Of a stretch of DNA of 44,025 nucleotides, positions 32,631-41,348 are shown piece after piece. Below the pieces are notes generated by a model, which was not told the origin of the DNA, ran no database searches, and worked only from the letters and a program-made list of their open reading frames with translations. Position numbers and translations under genes: made by a program. Each line of letters starts with the position of its first letter. Positions within the stretch are counted from its first letter, which is position 1. This stretch comes from Candidatus Nitrosocosmicus sp. (GTDB taxonomy: Archaea; Thermoproteota; Nitrososphaeria; Nitrososphaerales; Nitrososphaeraceae). Location of the stretch: the NCBI GenBank assembly GCA_025934495.1, contig JAICXY010000018.1, forward strand, positions 1 to 44,025, given 5' to 3'.

Positions 32631-33586
32631 GAGCCTATCCCAAGATAATTTTTCTATATATAATGATACAACAGGAGAACTGCACTATCCCAAGATAATT
32701 TTCCAACTTTTTCTCATAACGAGTAAACAGTTTTCTAAATCTGTTATGCCAGGGTTTGGTTCGCTCTATAACACACCTCTTATGGGAGAATATTTTTTTA
32801 TATTGAGTATAGGTCGTGATACATATTTTTCATTGTTTGTATCTTTCTTCGCTTTCTTAATTGGAATATGTAATACATAACCTCGTTTGATTAGTTCCTG
32901 TTCTTTGTTTTCAGAATTGTATCCTTTATCAAGACATAGATGCTGTTGTCCTCTTATTCTTCTTTCCCGTTTCTGTATTTGGATGATGGTCGTTTAATAA
33001 CCGAGTTATCAACCACATCTATTACCAGTTTTACATCATGAGTGCTTGCAGATGATATAATAACAGATAAAGGAATTCCATTTTTATCTGTTAAAATATG
33101 CCTTTTTGTTCCCAGTTTGCTTCTATCAACATGATTATTTCCATCAGTCATGTCCCCTCCTAAAGGTGACTTTATAGATATGTTATCTATGGATTGCCAT
33201 CACATCCATTTGATTCCTTCTTTATTATCATATTCTTTTAACAACCTAATTCACATCTTTTGAAGATATTCAACTGAACCCATTGTTGAAATCTCCTATG
33301 GCATGTAGGTCCTGAGTTATATTCTGAAGGCAGCATCTTCCACTATTGACAGCCGGTTCTTAGAACATATAGAATACCATTTAACACTTTTCTAAAAGGA
33401 ATAGCAGGACGACCTATAATATATTGTGGTTTTTCGTATGGTAAAAGGTCAGATACCTTGTCCCATAATTTATCTGAAATCGTGGCAATGGTAAACACCT
33501 TCTTATTCTTATGTCGATTGAAGAAAGGCACGTTTTTATAAAGATCTACAATCAGCTATATTTTTATCGAATTTTGGGATAGGCTC
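32631..33586 (-). mobile_element. IS5-family element with inverted ends, inactive
   Basis: The outer ends GAGCCTATCCCAA (32631-32643) and its inverse TTGGGATAGGCTC (33574-33586) are perfect 13-bp inverted repeats 956 bp apart. Between them is a broken IS5-type transposase. A second copy of the inner part of the left end (CTATCCCAAGATAATTTT) occurs 50 bp further in, at 32685-32702. No convincing target duplication flanks the element: the left flank ends ACTT and the right begins TTAA. Confidence 0.75.
32954..33531 (-). pseudogene. IS5-family transposase, frameshifted
   Basis: The N-terminal frame (33343-33531) reads ISDKLWDKVSDLLPYEKPQ and VLNGILYVLRTGCQ, ending at a stop just before WKMLPSEYNSGPTCHRRFQQWVQ in the same frame. 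After shifts, MTDGNNHVDRSKLGTKRHILTD, IPLSVIISSASTHD and VVDNSVIKRPSSKYRNGKEE follow (32954-33151). Further downstream debris reaches about 32700. The order matches transposases of the IS5 family, IS427-like group. Not functional. Confidence 0.75.
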
Positions 33587-34061: not shown

Positions 34062-34769
34062 ATGAAACCAGCAATCCTAATAGTAGATGATAATCTGCAA
34101 TTTTTAAAATCCATCGAACCTGGATTAAATCGGCAATACGGTAATATTTTTCAAATACTTTTGGCAGATTCTGGTCATCGAGCTATTGAAATAATAGGGC
34201 AGTTAAAGTTACGCAATGAAGTCGCAGCATTATTTATAGTTGACCAGAGAATGCCTGGTATGACTGGTGTTGAATTCTTGGAAAAAACTATGGACGTATT
34301 TCCTGATGCAAAACGGGTATTACTTTCAGATTATGGTGATACAGATGCAATTATGGCATCAATCAATAAAGTAAAAATTGATTTTTACTTGACCAAACCT
34401 TGTGAACCTCTTGAAATTCATCTTTATCCTGCTCTAAACGATATTCTTGATGACTGGAAGAGTTCGTATCATACGCCGTTTGAAGGTATTAAAGTTATAG
34501 GTGTAAAATGGTCACCAAGATCGCATGAGATAAAAGAATTTTTATCTAGAAACGGCATACCTTATCAATGGCTAGATATAGAAAGTGATAAAGAAGCTCG
34601 CCGCTTGGTTTCTTTTGTTAATTCAACCACCTCTGCCTCACCAATGAATTCTTCTACTGGTAGTTCCTCTTCTATTGAGATTGACAATGATGTATATAAC
34701 AATACACCTCCAACAAAACCTTCTTCTTCTAATTACTATTCCTTACCTACCACTCGTTATATTTTCTGA
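34062..34769 (+). CDS. Response-regulator receiver plus thioredoxin-like domain (N-terminal part of split fusion)
   Basis: The N-terminal part of a fusion continued at 34675-35829. Residues 1-125 form a receiver domain: ILIVDDN (acidic pair), FIVDQRMPGMTG with Asp61 as phosphoacceptor, VLLSDYG with Ser89 at the Thr/Ser position, and Lys112 in LTKPCEP. Residues ~140-180 (IKVIGVKWSPRSHEIKEFLSRNGIPYQWLDI) have the fold pattern of a glutaredoxin/thioredoxin-like strand-helix, but with WSPRS where an active CxxC would be. A Ser/Asn-rich linker follows. I prefer the ATG at 34062; the frame opens at 34029. The frame ends at 34769, out of register with the next domain. Confidence 0.8.
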   Translation: MKPAILIVDDNLQFLKSIEPGLNRQYGNIFQILLADSGHRAIEIIGQLKLRNEVAALFIVDQRMPGMTGVEFLEKTMDVFPDAKRVLLSDYGDTDAIMASINKVKIDFYLTKPCEPLEIHLYPALNDILDDWKSSYHTPFEGIKVIGVKWSPRSHEIKEFLSRNGIPYQWLDIESDKEARRLVSFVNSTTSASPMNSSTGSSSSIEIDNDVYNNTPPTKPSSSNYYSLPTTRYIF

Positions 34770-35829
34770 TGGCTCATATTTAGCTGAACCAACTAATTCA
34801 CAAATTGCCGAAAAAATTGGTCTCAAAACTCGTGCAAAGATGGACTTTTATGATTTAATTATAATAGGAGGAGGTCCAGCTGGATTGTCGGCAGCAGTGT
34901 ATGGCGCATCTGAAGGTCTGCATACAATATTAATAGAAAGACAGGCGCCCGGAGGCCAAGCAAGTGCAAGTTCTAATATAGAAAACTATCTAGGATTTCC
35001 ATCTGGCTTGACTGGCTTTAACTTATCCAGACGTGCTGTGACTCAGGCTATAAAGTTTGGTGTGGAGATCCTAAATCCTCAAGAGGTTACCGGTATAAAA
35101 ATAGACAATCAATATCGCATAGCAACATTGACAGATGGATCTAAAATAAGATCCCATGTAATTCTAATTGCTTGTGGAGTTACATATCGTAGGCTTAAAG
35201 ATGTAAAGAATATTGACAAATTAGTAGGAGCTGGTGTATTTTATGGTGCCTCTATCGTAGAGGCATTACATTTTAAGGATCAGGATATTTATATTGTTGG
35301 AGGAGCCAATTCTGCAGGACAGGCTGCAATTTATTTCTCAAAATACGCTAAAAAAGTAACGTTACTTGTTCGTACAGATACCTTGACCGAAAAAATGTCA
35401 CAATATCTTGTACATCAAATAAATGAAACAAATAATATTAAAGTAATGTTAAATACAGTGGTTACTGGAGTAAATGGCGAAAATAAACTTGAAAGTATTG
35501 CTATAAAGAATACTAAAACAGGAGAACAACGGATTATACCCGGAGCTGGATTATTCATATACATTGGTGCAGAGCCTCATACAGACTGGCTCAATGGACT
35601 AGTGCAAAGAGATAATCATGGCTCTATTCTTACCGGATCAGATCTGGCTAATAACGGACATCCTCAAGATTGGATCATGGATCGTCAATATTTTTTACTT
35701 GAAACAAATGTTCCCGGCATATTTGCTGCTGGGGATGTACGTCATGGCTCTATTAAGAGAATTGCTGCAGGAGTGGGAGAGGGATCTACAGCTATTCAGC
35801 TAATACATCAGTATTTAAAAAAAGTATAA
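34675..35829 (+). CDS. Thioredoxin-reductase-like flavoprotein (C-terminal part of split fusion)
   Basis: Reading from about 34750, this frame completes the thioredoxin-like domain (LPLVIFSDGSYLAEPTNSQIAEKIGLKT). It then gives a complete FAD/NAD(P) oxidoreductase: FAD motif LIIIGGGPAGLSAAVYG, RQAPGGQASASSNIENYLGFP, NAD(P) motif IYIVGGANSAGQAA, LLVRTDTLTEKM, and IFAAGDVRHGS near the end. Where thioredoxin reductase has CATC before the NAD motif, this protein reads GAGVFYGASIVEAL, so the redox dithiol is absent. It lies one base out of frame with the receiver part. The first ~25 residues from the ATG at 34675 are probably not real. Confidence 0.8.
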   Translation: MRLTMMYITIHLQQNLLLLITIPYLPLVIFSDGSYLAEPTNSQIAEKIGLKTRAKMDFYDLIIIGGGPAGLSAAVYGASEGLHTILIERQAPGGQASASSNIENYLGFPSGLTGFNLSRRAVTQAIKFGVEILNPQEVTGIKIDNQYRIATLTDGSKIRSHVILIACGVTYRRLKDVKNIDKLVGAGVFYGASIVEALHFKDQDIYIVGGANSAGQAAIYFSKYAKKVTLLVRTDTLTEKMSQYLVHQINETNNIKVMLNTVVTGVNGENKLESIAIKNTKTGEQRIIPGAGLFIYIGAEPHTDWLNGLVQRDNHGSILTGSDLANNGHPQDWIMDRQYFLLETNVPGIFAAGDVRHGSIKRIAAGVGEGSTAIQLIHQYLKKV

Positions 35830-36059
35830 TTAATTTTGGACATTTAAGGATGACATATTTTTGTTCAGAAAGACTATCTGTTTAATCAAATAAAGTCATT
35901 TTTATCTGTTAACTCTAAAGTTATCTCATATTTACCGATGTTGATTTCCCATTGATTTATGCCAAATCAAATAACTAGTTTGGTAGCAAAAACCAATAGA
36001 TATATTATGAATTATAATTTCTGTATTGTTCTTAAATTAGAGACGAGAAACCTGTTTTA

Positions 36060-36275
36060 GTTCAGCATGTGAAATGGTTAGTGCAAAACCCGAACCCTAC
36101 TGCAATCAAATAAGCTTGGTCATAATTCAATTCCTCTAACCCTTGGTTGGATAGTATCTATAAAGATATCTGCATTTGGTCGATCTTATAGGATTAGTCG
36201 CGATAAAATAAAGATCATGTAAGCAATAGCAATCTTATACTTATGCTCATTCATATAGTCTAGTACCTTCACCAT
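36060..36275 (-). pseudogene. Decayed membrane-protein-like remnant
   Basis: The 35830-36747 interval is mostly non-coding. Within it, minus-strand pieces read MVKVLDYMNEHKYKIAIAYMIFILSRL, then in another frame RPNADIFIDTIQPRVRGIEL, then AYLIAVGFGFCTNHF. The helix, the PRVRG loop and the next helix loosely recall an MFS transporter. This is a weak resemblance only. Confidence 0.22.
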
Positions 36276-36747
36276 TGTTATACATAACTATTGCAATGGA
36301 GGAGAAGGAGTCTCATCGTTAACGTGACATTAGAACATTTAGAAATCCCTGTATCACATACCCTATAAAATCAGTATATTCTATATAGGTCCGTTTTTTC
36401 TATTCTAGATAGTATCTTATATTCTATGTTCTAAATGTTCTATATATTATAAGTATAATATTCATTGTATTTATTATATTTATTGATGATTATAGCAATT
36501 AAGTATGCATTTAATAAGGTTTATCAATAATAATAACGATATTCATTATTTCTTCTAGAACATCATATGTTCTGGATGGTCTATTAGCATTATTCTTCTA
36601 GCAATTCGAGTCTTATTTTAGAAATAGGTTTATATGAAGGCGACTATGTCAATGGTTTATCCTTAAATAGTGTATACACCCACTGTAAAAGTAAAAATAA
36701 CATAACTGCTTATTAGGATTAGGTATGTATAGTTGTATGTAATATAA
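36276..36747. other. Long leader region with palindromes upstream of the zinc-ribbon gene
   Basis: Very AT-rich. Contains AGAACAT-CAT-ATGTTCT (36557-36573), a perfect interrupted palindrome, and TTCTA/ATGTTCTA direct repeats around 36415-36445. These could be protein-binding sites for the downstream genes. I see no coding frame. Confidence 0.35.
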
Positions 36748-36895
36748 GTGTCAGCATTAACATGCCACCGTTGTAACAACACCTGGAAATACAAAGGAAC
36801 CAACCCCTATTGTGCCAACTGTTCTAGATGCCAATCAACATTTTTATAAAAAAGTCATCCCTTATTCCGATAGAAAGCACCAGTTCAAACTATAA
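36748..36895 (+). pseudogene. Small zinc-ribbon protein, frameshifted
   Basis: The frame from a GTG at 36748 reads SALTCHRCNNTWKYKGTNPY followed by CANCSRCQSTF, with four cysteines as two CxxC pairs, stopping at 36849. One base out of register, the sequence continues KKVIPYSDRKHQFKL to a stop at 36895. The two halves read as one protein of about 48 residues interrupted by a single +1 shift in a run of T (36841-36845). Either the gene is broken, the sequence has an error, or the short form is the real product. Confidence 0.4.
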
Positions 36896-36917
36896 TAAAA
36901 GGAGTGATACAAACTAG

Positions 36918-37776: not shown

Positions 37777-38507
37777 TACCACAACATCAGCGGCAACAGC
37801 AACAGCAGCAGCAGTAATCAGTTGACAATATCATATTGTTAACAATATAGAGGAGAGAAAAAGATGATTAATTACCAAATAATTAATTATATTTTGCCGC
37901 TTTTCTAATTGCTTTTATAAATACTTGAACACCATTTTAATCGAATCTTCTTTATGATCCAGCCTTATCAAAAATCTATAAAGACCTACAGATTATCGAT
38001 TTTGAATTATATACAGCACTGTTAATGTCATATTAATAGATCAACAAACCCCTATTAATATCATAAAGCATGAATAATAACACTGTACATTGTTTCGATA
38101 AGGACATGATGAAATCCATATTACGATTCCACAATCATTGAACAGTAGTAATATTTATGTCCTGATTCATTAAATCACAGTAAGTAAATCTGTCTTACGT
38201 CCTTTCTTATATTCGAAATCCACTATAGATATATTATGGGAAATTAATTCCAGTTTTGTATCTCTTGTATATATTGATTATTTATGTCCATCATCAAGTA
38301 CTCCCTGACCTAATTATAAATTATTTGAATAACAGAACTGGGCTTAACCTCTCCTTTTGAATATTGTATCATATGGATATCTACAATCTATCAAGGTTTT
38401 TATGAATCGAGGATTCGATATGACAAATATTATCAGACTATACTATCTGAGACATGGTCATAATTCAAGTTATCTCCTGATACATTTCATAATCTTAAAG
38501 CTAATAC
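37777..38507. other. Long intergenic region with CAG repeats and a palindrome
   Basis: Begins with a CAGCAACAGCAACAGCAGC-type triplet run. ATATTGTTAACAATAT (37833-37848) is a perfect 16-bp palindrome, followed by AGGAG and a 14-codon frame too short to call. The remainder to 38507 shows no coding signal. Confidence 0.35.
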
Positions 38508-39518
38508 TTGAGATATGATTTTGAGAAACACTGTCCCAAAGATTGGCTTGATAGAATAAAAGAATCTACCCTTTTATGTTCTGTATCTAGTAGGTTGTAT
38601 ACCATGGCCTACTGCACCAAGGAGGAAAGGTGGTAGACCACATGTATATTCTCCAACAACTGTAATTGTGAGATGTTTTGTTGTGAGGTTATGATGGTTT
38701 AGAATCGATTCAAACAATACCTTACATACTTTTCTTATTATGGACTGCTGTCAGTATACCCATAAACTAGCAATAGCCTGTGGTTTAGTATCCATTCCAT
38801 GCAGTAGACGAACATTTGATAGGCGTTTGAAGACTATTTCTACTACAAATATAAAAGAAAGGATATCAACAATGGGATATCTGTTTATTACAAACGCCCT
38901 AGCAGGTCCTTCTATAACCGCAATAGATAGTAATCTGCTAAAAGCAAAGGATCATGTATGGCATAAATCATCCATGAAAAAAGGTATAGTACCATGCCCT
39001 GGCATAGATACAGACGCAAGATGGTGGGGATATAGTCATACCAAGAAATGGATTTTCGGATATAAACTACATCTAACATGTACACCAGGTAAGATTATAG
39101 TACATTTAACTGCAGAAGTTACTACTGCTAATGTTCAAGATAACAAGATGTATGCATGTTCCTTTAACTTCTTCTTCTTCTTCTTCGGTATTCTCTTTAC
39201 CATCTGTATTGTACATGATAGCTGATCCAGGCCATGACGATAAGAAACTGTATCGACATAGCAAGAAGGTATTGAGAATAGATCTAGTTTGCCCTGTTGA
39301 ACGATACGAAAATACTCCCAAAAAGAGGCTTGAACTTATGCTTTTATCAATCGGCATTGGAACAATCTATCTACAGCCGAAGGAGAAGAATATCGATAGA
39401 GCCATTGATGTAACATATCAAATCAGTTTTTAGGACGGACCCATTGCGAGCACGAGGATATCATGCGGTATCTACAACTGTACTCTTATCAGTTTTATTA
39501 TATCAGCTAATAATATAG
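38508..39518 (+). pseudogene. Decayed DDE transposase
   Basis: Pieces in order: LRYDFEKHCPKDWLDRIKES (from 38508), PRRKGGRPHVYSPTTVIV, then a 161-codon frame (38740-39225) with CGLVSIPCSRRTFDRRLK, ITAIDSNLLKAKDHVWHKSS, GIDTDARWWGYSHTKKWIFGY and TAEVTTANVQDN. A TTC/CTT run near 39165-39188 marks a shift, after which VLYMIADPGHDDKKLY, KKVLRIDLVCPVERYEN and, one more shift later, DPLRARGYHAVSTTVLLSVLLYQLI follow. AIDSN and IADPGHDD fit DDE catalytic positions. Not functional. Confidence 0.7.
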
Positions 39519-39737
39519 TATAACTGTAAAACTAAAAAAATAAATCCAAAATCAATAAAATATATGCTTGGAACTATCTGATACGATGGTAAAGATAAAG
39601 ATAAATTATTTTGAATTATGACCATGTCTCAATTAATTAATAAATTAAATGGAAATCAGTAAATAAATAAATGTTCAATTGATATGACACTAGTAGATTT
39701 TATATCAAAATAAAACATCTTCATTCTACAGGTTTTT

Positions 39738-40274: not shown

Positions 40275-41348
40275 TTGACAAAATCGACTGAGCCTAATGA
40301 GGAATTCTACAAAGAAGGAACTGAGGTAGTTGTTGGTGCTCAGGAAATTATTGAAAGAAATTTGGAATGTCTTTCCGACACAATTCACGAATGGAACAAC
40401 TATACCGACTCTATTGGTCCAATCATCTTCAGCAAGGTGGAAGAGGTCAAGAAAGCTTATGCCGAGGCACTCAAAAGAGGCGTTAGAATAAGAATAATAA
40501 CCGAGATTACCAAGGACAATATAGACCATTGTAGAGAGGGTATGAAATACGTTTCAGAGTTGCGGCACATGGATGGAATCTCTGGAACATTTGTGGTAAG
40601 CGACAAACACTATTTGAGCAACGCAATGTCCGAAAACATCGGAAGCTTTCAGTGTGTCCACAGCAACATAAGGTCTTTTGTGGAGCAACAGAAACATATT
40701 TTTGAGAACCTATGGAGTAACGCGATACCCGCCACAGAGAAAATCAAAGAGTTGGAAGACGTAAGTGTAGGATTCTATAAAGTGTTGCATTGTCAGGAGC
40801 AGGCAAGAAGCCTTTTTCTAGATCTGATAGAATCCTCAAGACAAGAGATTCTGATTCTCTTTTCTCTCTCAGACAGACTTTTGGAGTATGTCCATTCAGG
40901 AATGATTGAACTCTTGGTTAACGTTATTATGGAGAAAAAGGTGCAGGCTCGCATCCTACTTCCTGTAGATATCCAAAACTATTCGAATATACGCCTAAAG
41001 AAGAGATTGGAAACCGATTTGAATGACAAAGAGCATTTACAAAAGGACAAGATCAAAAACGGTGTAGCAGCAAGAAAGGGGAAGCTAACGCTAAAGGCAT
41101 TAGACAAAAACTACAAAAACCAGTATTTGAAAAAGACATCTTTTATTCTCATTGTAGACTCCAAAGTTTCTATGATTGGGGCAACATCTAAAGACCAAGA
41201 GAACGCAAAAGAAGATGACCTCAGGAATCGTCAACCTGTCGTTGTTGATAACCAAACCGAATATTACACCTATACGAACAGTGAAGGAGTAGTGTTATCA
41301 ACTACATCAATATTTGAAACGTTATGGGAAAATGCGATTTACATATAA
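40275..41348 (+). CDS. Sensor-domain protein lacking a histidine-kinase module
   Basis: A 357-residue protein with two related halves. Each has a phospholipase-D-like or sugar-sensor-like pattern: VKKAYAEALKRGVRIRIITEITKDN with GTFVVSDKHYL and IFENLWSNAIP in the first; LLVNVIMEKKVQARILLPVDI with FILIVDSKVSMIGA and SIFETLWENAI in the second. This arrangement is what I recall from the N-termini of thaumarchaeal sensor kinases, where SIFETLW is followed by a HisKA/HATPase core. Here the protein ends three residues later. Base composition is visibly richer in G+C than the surroundings, suggesting transfer from elsewhere. The start is TTG. Confidence 0.7.
   Translation: MTKSTEPNEEFYKEGTEVVVGAQEIIERNLECLSDTIHEWNNYTDSIGPIIFSKVEEVKKAYAEALKRGVRIRIITEITKDNIDHCREGMKYVSELRHMDGISGTFVVSDKHYLSNAMSENIGSFQCVHSNIRSFVEQQKHIFENLWSNAIPATEKIKELEDVSVGFYKVLHCQEQARSLFLDLIESSRQEILILFSLSDRLLEYVHSGMIELLVNVIMEKKVQARILLPVDIQNYSNIRLKKRLETDLNDKEHLQKDKIKNGVAARKGKLTLKALDKNYKNQYLKKTSFILIVDSKVSMIGATSKDQENAKEDDLRNRQPVVVDNQTEYYTYTNSEGVVLSTTSIFETLWENAIYI

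Follow-up and report, generated by a model that had tools for sequence, protein, structure and literature searches.

Organization of the locus

The window (the whole 44,025-nt stretch of DNA analysed here) is contig C54 of a Candidatus Nitrosocosmicus genome of 3.56 Mb in 200 contigs. At 34062-35829 on the plus strand it carries a receiver–oxidoreductase fusion whose two parts lie in different reading frames. The features are as follows.

34062..34436, plus strand: receiver (REC) domain (Pfam Response_reg E=2.5e-12, residues 5-120)
34488..34619, plus strand: first part of a Trx/Grx-like domain (beta1-alpha1-beta2-alpha2), WSPRS replacing CxxC (mycoredoxin profile, AF2 fold order)
34620..34743, plus strand: Ser/Asn/Thr-rich insertion within the Trx-like domain, holding the +1 shift (archaeal-only, disordered in the model)
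34744..34839, plus strand: rest of the Trx-like domain, read in the +1 frame: cis-Pro strand with YLPLVIF, then the final strand and helix (alignment with intact homologues)
34840..35829, plus strand: TrxR-like FAD/NAD(P)H domain, from an in-frame ATG at 34840 to the stop at 35829 (Pfam Pyr_redox_2)
35830..36917, plus strand: stretch downstream where intact relatives encode a CNB histidine kinase; the kinase is absent here (tblastn)

The frame-0 ORF (34062-34769, +) encodes the receiver and the first part of the thioredoxin/glutaredoxin (Trx/Grx)-like domain, and its stop codon, TGA at 34767-34769, lies 3' of the Ser/Asn/Thr-rich insertion. The second (+1) frame supplies YLPLVIF, from codon 34744, and then the thioredoxin reductase (TrxR)-like FAD/NAD domain, ending at 35829. 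The acidic pair D9/D10, the phospho-acceptor D61 and K112 are all present in the window receiver; these residues and P113 are invariant across the 75 full-length family proteins that were aligned. The switch residue is S89 in the window and T in the 75 relatives. WSPRS belongs to a glutaredoxin/mycoredoxin-like stretch (NCBIfam mycoredoxin E=1.3e-6, residues 143-194), while the +1-frame product matches Pfam Pyr_redox_2 (E=1.2e-38), contains the flavoprotein motifs GGGPAG and GGANSAG, and reads GAGVFYGAS at the CxxC site. The Pfam and NCBIfam matches uphold the domain order proposed in an earlier sequence-only reading, namely a receiver with Asp61, a thioredoxin-like domain with WSPRS and an FAD oxidoreductase with GAGVFYGAS.

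In the assembly, the window copy does not form a single open frame through all domains, as it contains a +1 shift before 34744. Neither half is a chance ORF, since intact single-frame homologues of 585-605 amino acids span both. Alignment with intact homologues confirmed that there is one +1 frameshift, as the earlier reading had proposed. Because the second frame aligns with homologues from YLPLVIF onwards, the shift lies upstream of 34744, probably at about 34720-34744. Homopolymers near the site do not exceed a length of 4.

The insertion and the predicted fold

The Ser/Asn-rich stretch had been described as a linker. Based on the family alignment and an AF2 model, it is not interdomain and is better described as a disordered insertion inside the Trx-like fold. 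It sits between alpha2 and beta3 and is present in all intact archaeal copies, where 49-69 residues separate beta2 from the cis-Pro motif, versus 16-22 in bacteria. The insertion is confined to archaeal copies, and the window frameshift falls inside it.

The model was built on the intact homologue L108 (Nitrososphaerales archaeon TH5893; contig sequence the same as that of G023). It has a mean pLDDT of 89 and contains REC, Trx-like and TrxR-like domains; the Trx-like domain is complete (beta-alpha-beta-alpha-beta-beta-alpha), broken by disordered residues 193-217. In Foldseek searches the model of this intact archaeal homologue matches TrxRs of known structure with E=9.6e-33 and with TM up to 0.93 (the latter to 5mh4), so that Pfam, AF2 and Foldseek all indicate an FAD- and dinucleotide-binding TrxR fold. 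The Lactococcus lactis structure 5mh4 (labelled FR conformation) superposes at 0.93 and the FO structure 5mjk at 0.62; the better superposition on FR than on FO is suggestive only.

Missing cysteines

The sequence-only reading was right that redox cysteines are lacking at this locus. It had also allowed that homologues with CxxC at the TrxR-like site would mark the window copy as simply degenerate; homologues were aligned, and CxxC was found at that site in 0 of 75 family proteins. WSPxS is conserved in the 75 full-length proteins, which have G[AS]G[VI]YYGA in the CxxC region; WSPRS and GAGVFYGA of the window correspond to these motifs. Relative to canonical TrxR there is one extra residue, and in all 81 family rows the residues at the two cysteine positions are A/G/T/S and T/S/V/A, respectively. 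The HRRxxxR 2'-phosphate binding motif is also absent, this region being VRTDTLTEKM in the window and VRGDSL in relatives (VRxxxL). TrxB of the window's own genome (C200) keeps CATC, and the CNB/Grx-like/TrxR-like paralogues C35 and C33 of the same genome likewise lack the cysteines.

From the alignment, the missing CxxC is an ancestral, family-wide design with no sign of degeneration, and decay of the cysteines in the window copy was rejected since their absence is family-wide. The question of chemistry therefore belongs to the intact homologues. A relocated cysteine pair substituting for CxxC was also considered. A cysteine occurs in SCHA in 62/75 proteins and in EALSC in 63/75; 53 of the 75 have both, 19 have one only and 3 have neither, and both are lost in the window (EALHF, KIRSHV). 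Because the pair is incomplete in 22/75 and lost in the window, it is not an obligate catalytic pair.

Partner histidine kinase and neighbouring mobile elements

A kinase HE[LIMV]NNP box lies ≤900 nt downstream of the fusion in 50 of 73 testable loci. The kinase is retained at six archaeal loci (G023, G015, G071, G041, G083 and G082), and an ‘ATP-binding protein’ gene adjoins or sits near the fusion on plasmids or loci of Nostoc, Gloeothece, Deinococcus, Caballeronia and Streptomyces. The four kinases scanned with Pfam (two archaeal, two bacterial) contain cNMP_binding and HATPase_c. PADLOC applied to an archaeal kinase returned only TIR-effector models, over the cNMP-binding-like segment.

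No significant match to any of eight related kinases was found in the window by tblastn, and none of the 15 genomes of the window's genus, the window's own included, has a match to this kinase at E≤1e-40. The earlier proposal of phospho-gating is thus divided: for the family, control by phosphorylation is plausible since most relatives have a kinase gene next to the fusion, but the cognate kinase is missing from the window's genome and gating by its own kinase is therefore unavailable there. An unlinked kinase acting on the window's protein is possible because there are 38 HATPase_c matches elsewhere in the genome.

At 40275-41348 the window has a PLD-like sensor-type ORF (357 aa) without a kinase domain; it resembles the N-terminal part of a histidine kinase adjoining the fusion pseudogene of G009, another genome of the genus. 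At L166 (G041:C104) a receiver fragment adjoins a C-terminal kinase fragment; an internal deletion of the two-gene unit seems to have left this remnant. Directly upstream of the fusion, 32954-33531 holds pieces of an IS5-type transposase, with partial DDE_Tnp_1 and DUF4096 domains. Further downstream, a transposase ORF of the DDE_Tnp_1 type (38740-39225) stands between perfect inverted repeats of 21 nt (38448-38468 and 39611-39631), and 38448-39631 appears to be an insertion sequence of about 1.2 kb.

Distribution and origin of the family

The sequence-only reading mentioned similar fusions in archaeal genomes, yet the family was found to be mainly bacterial: its members are response regulators, so far uncharacterised. 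Within the archaeal order, matches came from 9 of 201 sampled genomes, each of them a member of the Nitrososphaeraceae. Intact full-length archaeal homologues occur in G023, G015, G071, G041, G083, G085 and G082. The fusion is present in only 2 of the 15 genomes of the window's genus, the window's own (one shift) and G009 (many stops). The literature searched yielded no functional study or biochemistry of any family member, although the architecture is mentioned in PMC5847659, which describes REC with thioredoxin reductase in Heimdallarchaeota (the sole archaeal source given there) and calls it ‘Mycobacterium-like’.

Over 93% of its C half, the window copy shares 63% identity with a plasmid protein of Nostoc edaphicum; identity to the own-genome paralogues C35 and C33 is only 45-46%. 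In an ML tree the archaeal sequences sampled, including that of the window, form one clade (100/99), which joins a Nostocales clade within bacterial diversity. The Nitrososphaeraceae probably acquired the fusion with its kinase from a cyanobacterium; the tree suggests this transfer as the simplest reading, with moderate support (86/79) at the deciding join. A scan of viral contigs with the N half gave no relative. On cyanobacterial plasmids (L050, L051, L052), glgX and an AGE-family epimerase gene form a conserved neighbourhood upstream of the fusion, and at a Streptomyces locus (L055) a gene for a UBP-type zinc-finger protein lies 3' of the kinase. PADLOC had no match for either the fusion or the zinc-finger protein.

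Selection and decay within the genus

The G009 copy has many stops and shifts, yet it crosses the Ser/Asn-rich stretch in a single frame, and its lesions are therefore independent of that in the window. Apart from the shift, the window copy has no stop in about 540 codons. DNA identity between the two copies is 78% (N half) and 77% (C half), with dN/dS of 0.22 and 0.21, respectively, which suggests that both halves were under purifying selection until what may be recent times.

Invariant columns (n=250) were defined from seven archaeal and two Nostoc proteins, with 248 testable in G009 as well. The window departs at 36/250, and leave-one-out controls with functional archaeal relatives gave 0-7 departures in total (0-3 in the N half, 0-4 in the C half). 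Among the sites testable in both copies, 25 are changed in both, 11 in the window only and 37 in G009 only. Departures in the window are denser in the N half (15/68) than in the C half (21/182; Fisher p=0.043). Constraint thus appears to have relaxed in the genus, most on the receiver half and plausibly after loss of the kinase. Truncated receiver remnants occur in G042, G041:C104 and G082:C5.

Nature of the frameshift

The locus is probably an orphan response regulator gene that was disrupted very recently and that specifies REC, a cysteine-less Trx/Grx-like domain and a TrxR-like flavoprotein domain without CxxC. The lesion would be recent and the organism would make no full-length product; if the indel is real, none is expected from the window. 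The frameshift is private to the window copy, with the intact relatives and the G009 pseudogene spanning the stretch in one frame, and a recent lesion or an assembly error is therefore favoured over programmed frameshifting. The more serious rival is an assembly or sequencing error, which we consider possible though rather unlikely; an intact orphan REC/Trx-like/TrxR-like protein would then be made, perhaps phosphorylated by an unlinked kinase. There is only one indel, neither half has a stop, dN/dS is about 0.2 and repetitive Ser/Asn-rich coding sequence is hard to assemble; another well conserved redox gene of this assembly, CoA-disulfide-reductase-like (L049, G000:C46:33220-34184), is split by one clean shift too. 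Against an error, the site lacks a long homopolymer, the window core genes that were checked (GMP synthase, two CoA-ligase subunits, TatD and OMP decarboxylase) are in single open frames, and real decay is to be expected, given that the sister species has a clear pseudogene and that the kinase gene has been lost. L049 itself could be another recent pseudogene, or its split could reflect misassembly.

It is very improbable that the split is functional, with two proteins made by reinitiation at ATG 34840 or one by programmed +1 frameshifting. This ATG coincides with the start of the FAD domain, 71 nt past the upstream stop, and conservation is higher in the flavoprotein half than in the receiver half; however, the Met is present in intact fusions too and so was not gained for reinitiation, and no ribosome-binding site was seen by eye before it. 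The private shift, some nine codons ahead of the frame-0 stop, lies in low-complexity sequence in which no recognised shift motif was seen, and neither the intact archaeal copies nor G009 has a shift there; programmed frameshifting was rejected on the private shift and the missing motif. A long-dead pseudogene is hardly credible. The 36 changed invariant sites, versus 0-7 in functional archaeal relatives, and the lost kinase would fit one, but 25 of the 36 are changed in G009 too, so that many changes probably predate the split of the two copies, and private changes are fewer in the window (11) than in G009 (37). The absence of stops and the dN/dS value likewise argue against long death.

Proposed function of the intact relatives

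The window's genome stands out solely by the break and by the lack of a partner kinase; cysteine loss is a normal family trait. Intact relatives are likely phospho-gated NAD(P)H flavoenzymes without dithiol chemistry, judging from their domains and gene neighbourhood. The histidine kinase encoded next door, which in the cases checked has an N-terminal sensor of the cNMP-binding type, would sense a ligand or the redox state and phosphorylate the REC Asp of the fusion, and phosphorylated REC would modulate hydride transfer from NAD(P)H through FAD. Electrons may then pass to O2, a quinone or a protein, as the acceptor should be non-disulfide because CxxC is absent; alternatively, the enzyme may report the NAD(P)H/flavin state. 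Architecture and kinase linkage are apparent from sequence comparison, while we infer the acceptor of the electrons, the preferred cofactor and the direction of control.

We tentatively suggest that the wider family might be a mobile two-component module, a kinase plus a cysteine-less NAD(P)H flavoenzyme regulator, that is shared by Cyanobacteria, Acidobacteriota, Chloroflexota, Actinomycetota and soil ammonia-oxidising archaea and in which phosphorylation directly gates electron transfer. A damaged orphan locus thus leads to a widespread, apparently unstudied kind of response regulator and its usual kinase partner, and points to a likely transfer from cyanobacteria to the Nitrososphaeraceae followed by repeated decay.

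Comparison with known systems

REC-TrxR fusions of bacteria, which carry the annotation ‘FAD-dependent oxidoreductase’, match the window copy in domain order and in the motifs WSPxS and G[AS]G[VI]YYGA. The window copy differs from them in being frameshifted, in having no adjacent kinase and in carrying the archaeal Ser/Asn-rich insertion. The own-genome proteins C35 (568 aa) and C33 (579 aa) combine the same cysteine-less TrxR-like (GxGxYY[AG]T) and Trx/Grx-like domains, but their N-terminus is of the cNMP-binding type where the window has REC, and their identity to the window copy is lower than that of cyanobacterial REC fusions. Canonical low-Mr thioredoxin reductase (TrxB; C200 in this genome, PDB 7jyp) has the FAD/NAD fold in common with the family, which lacks CATC, has a one-residue insertion there and has VRxxxL in place of HRRxxxR; the window flavoprotein scores 240.5 bits against the TrxB profile TIGR01292, under its 343.45 cut-off. 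AhpF, also among the Foldseek matches, resembles the fusion in that a Trx-like domain precedes a TrxR-like one. In AhpF each of these units relies on CxxC, whereas the fusion lacks it in both, has REC added and scores 168 bits against an AhpF cut-off of 503.
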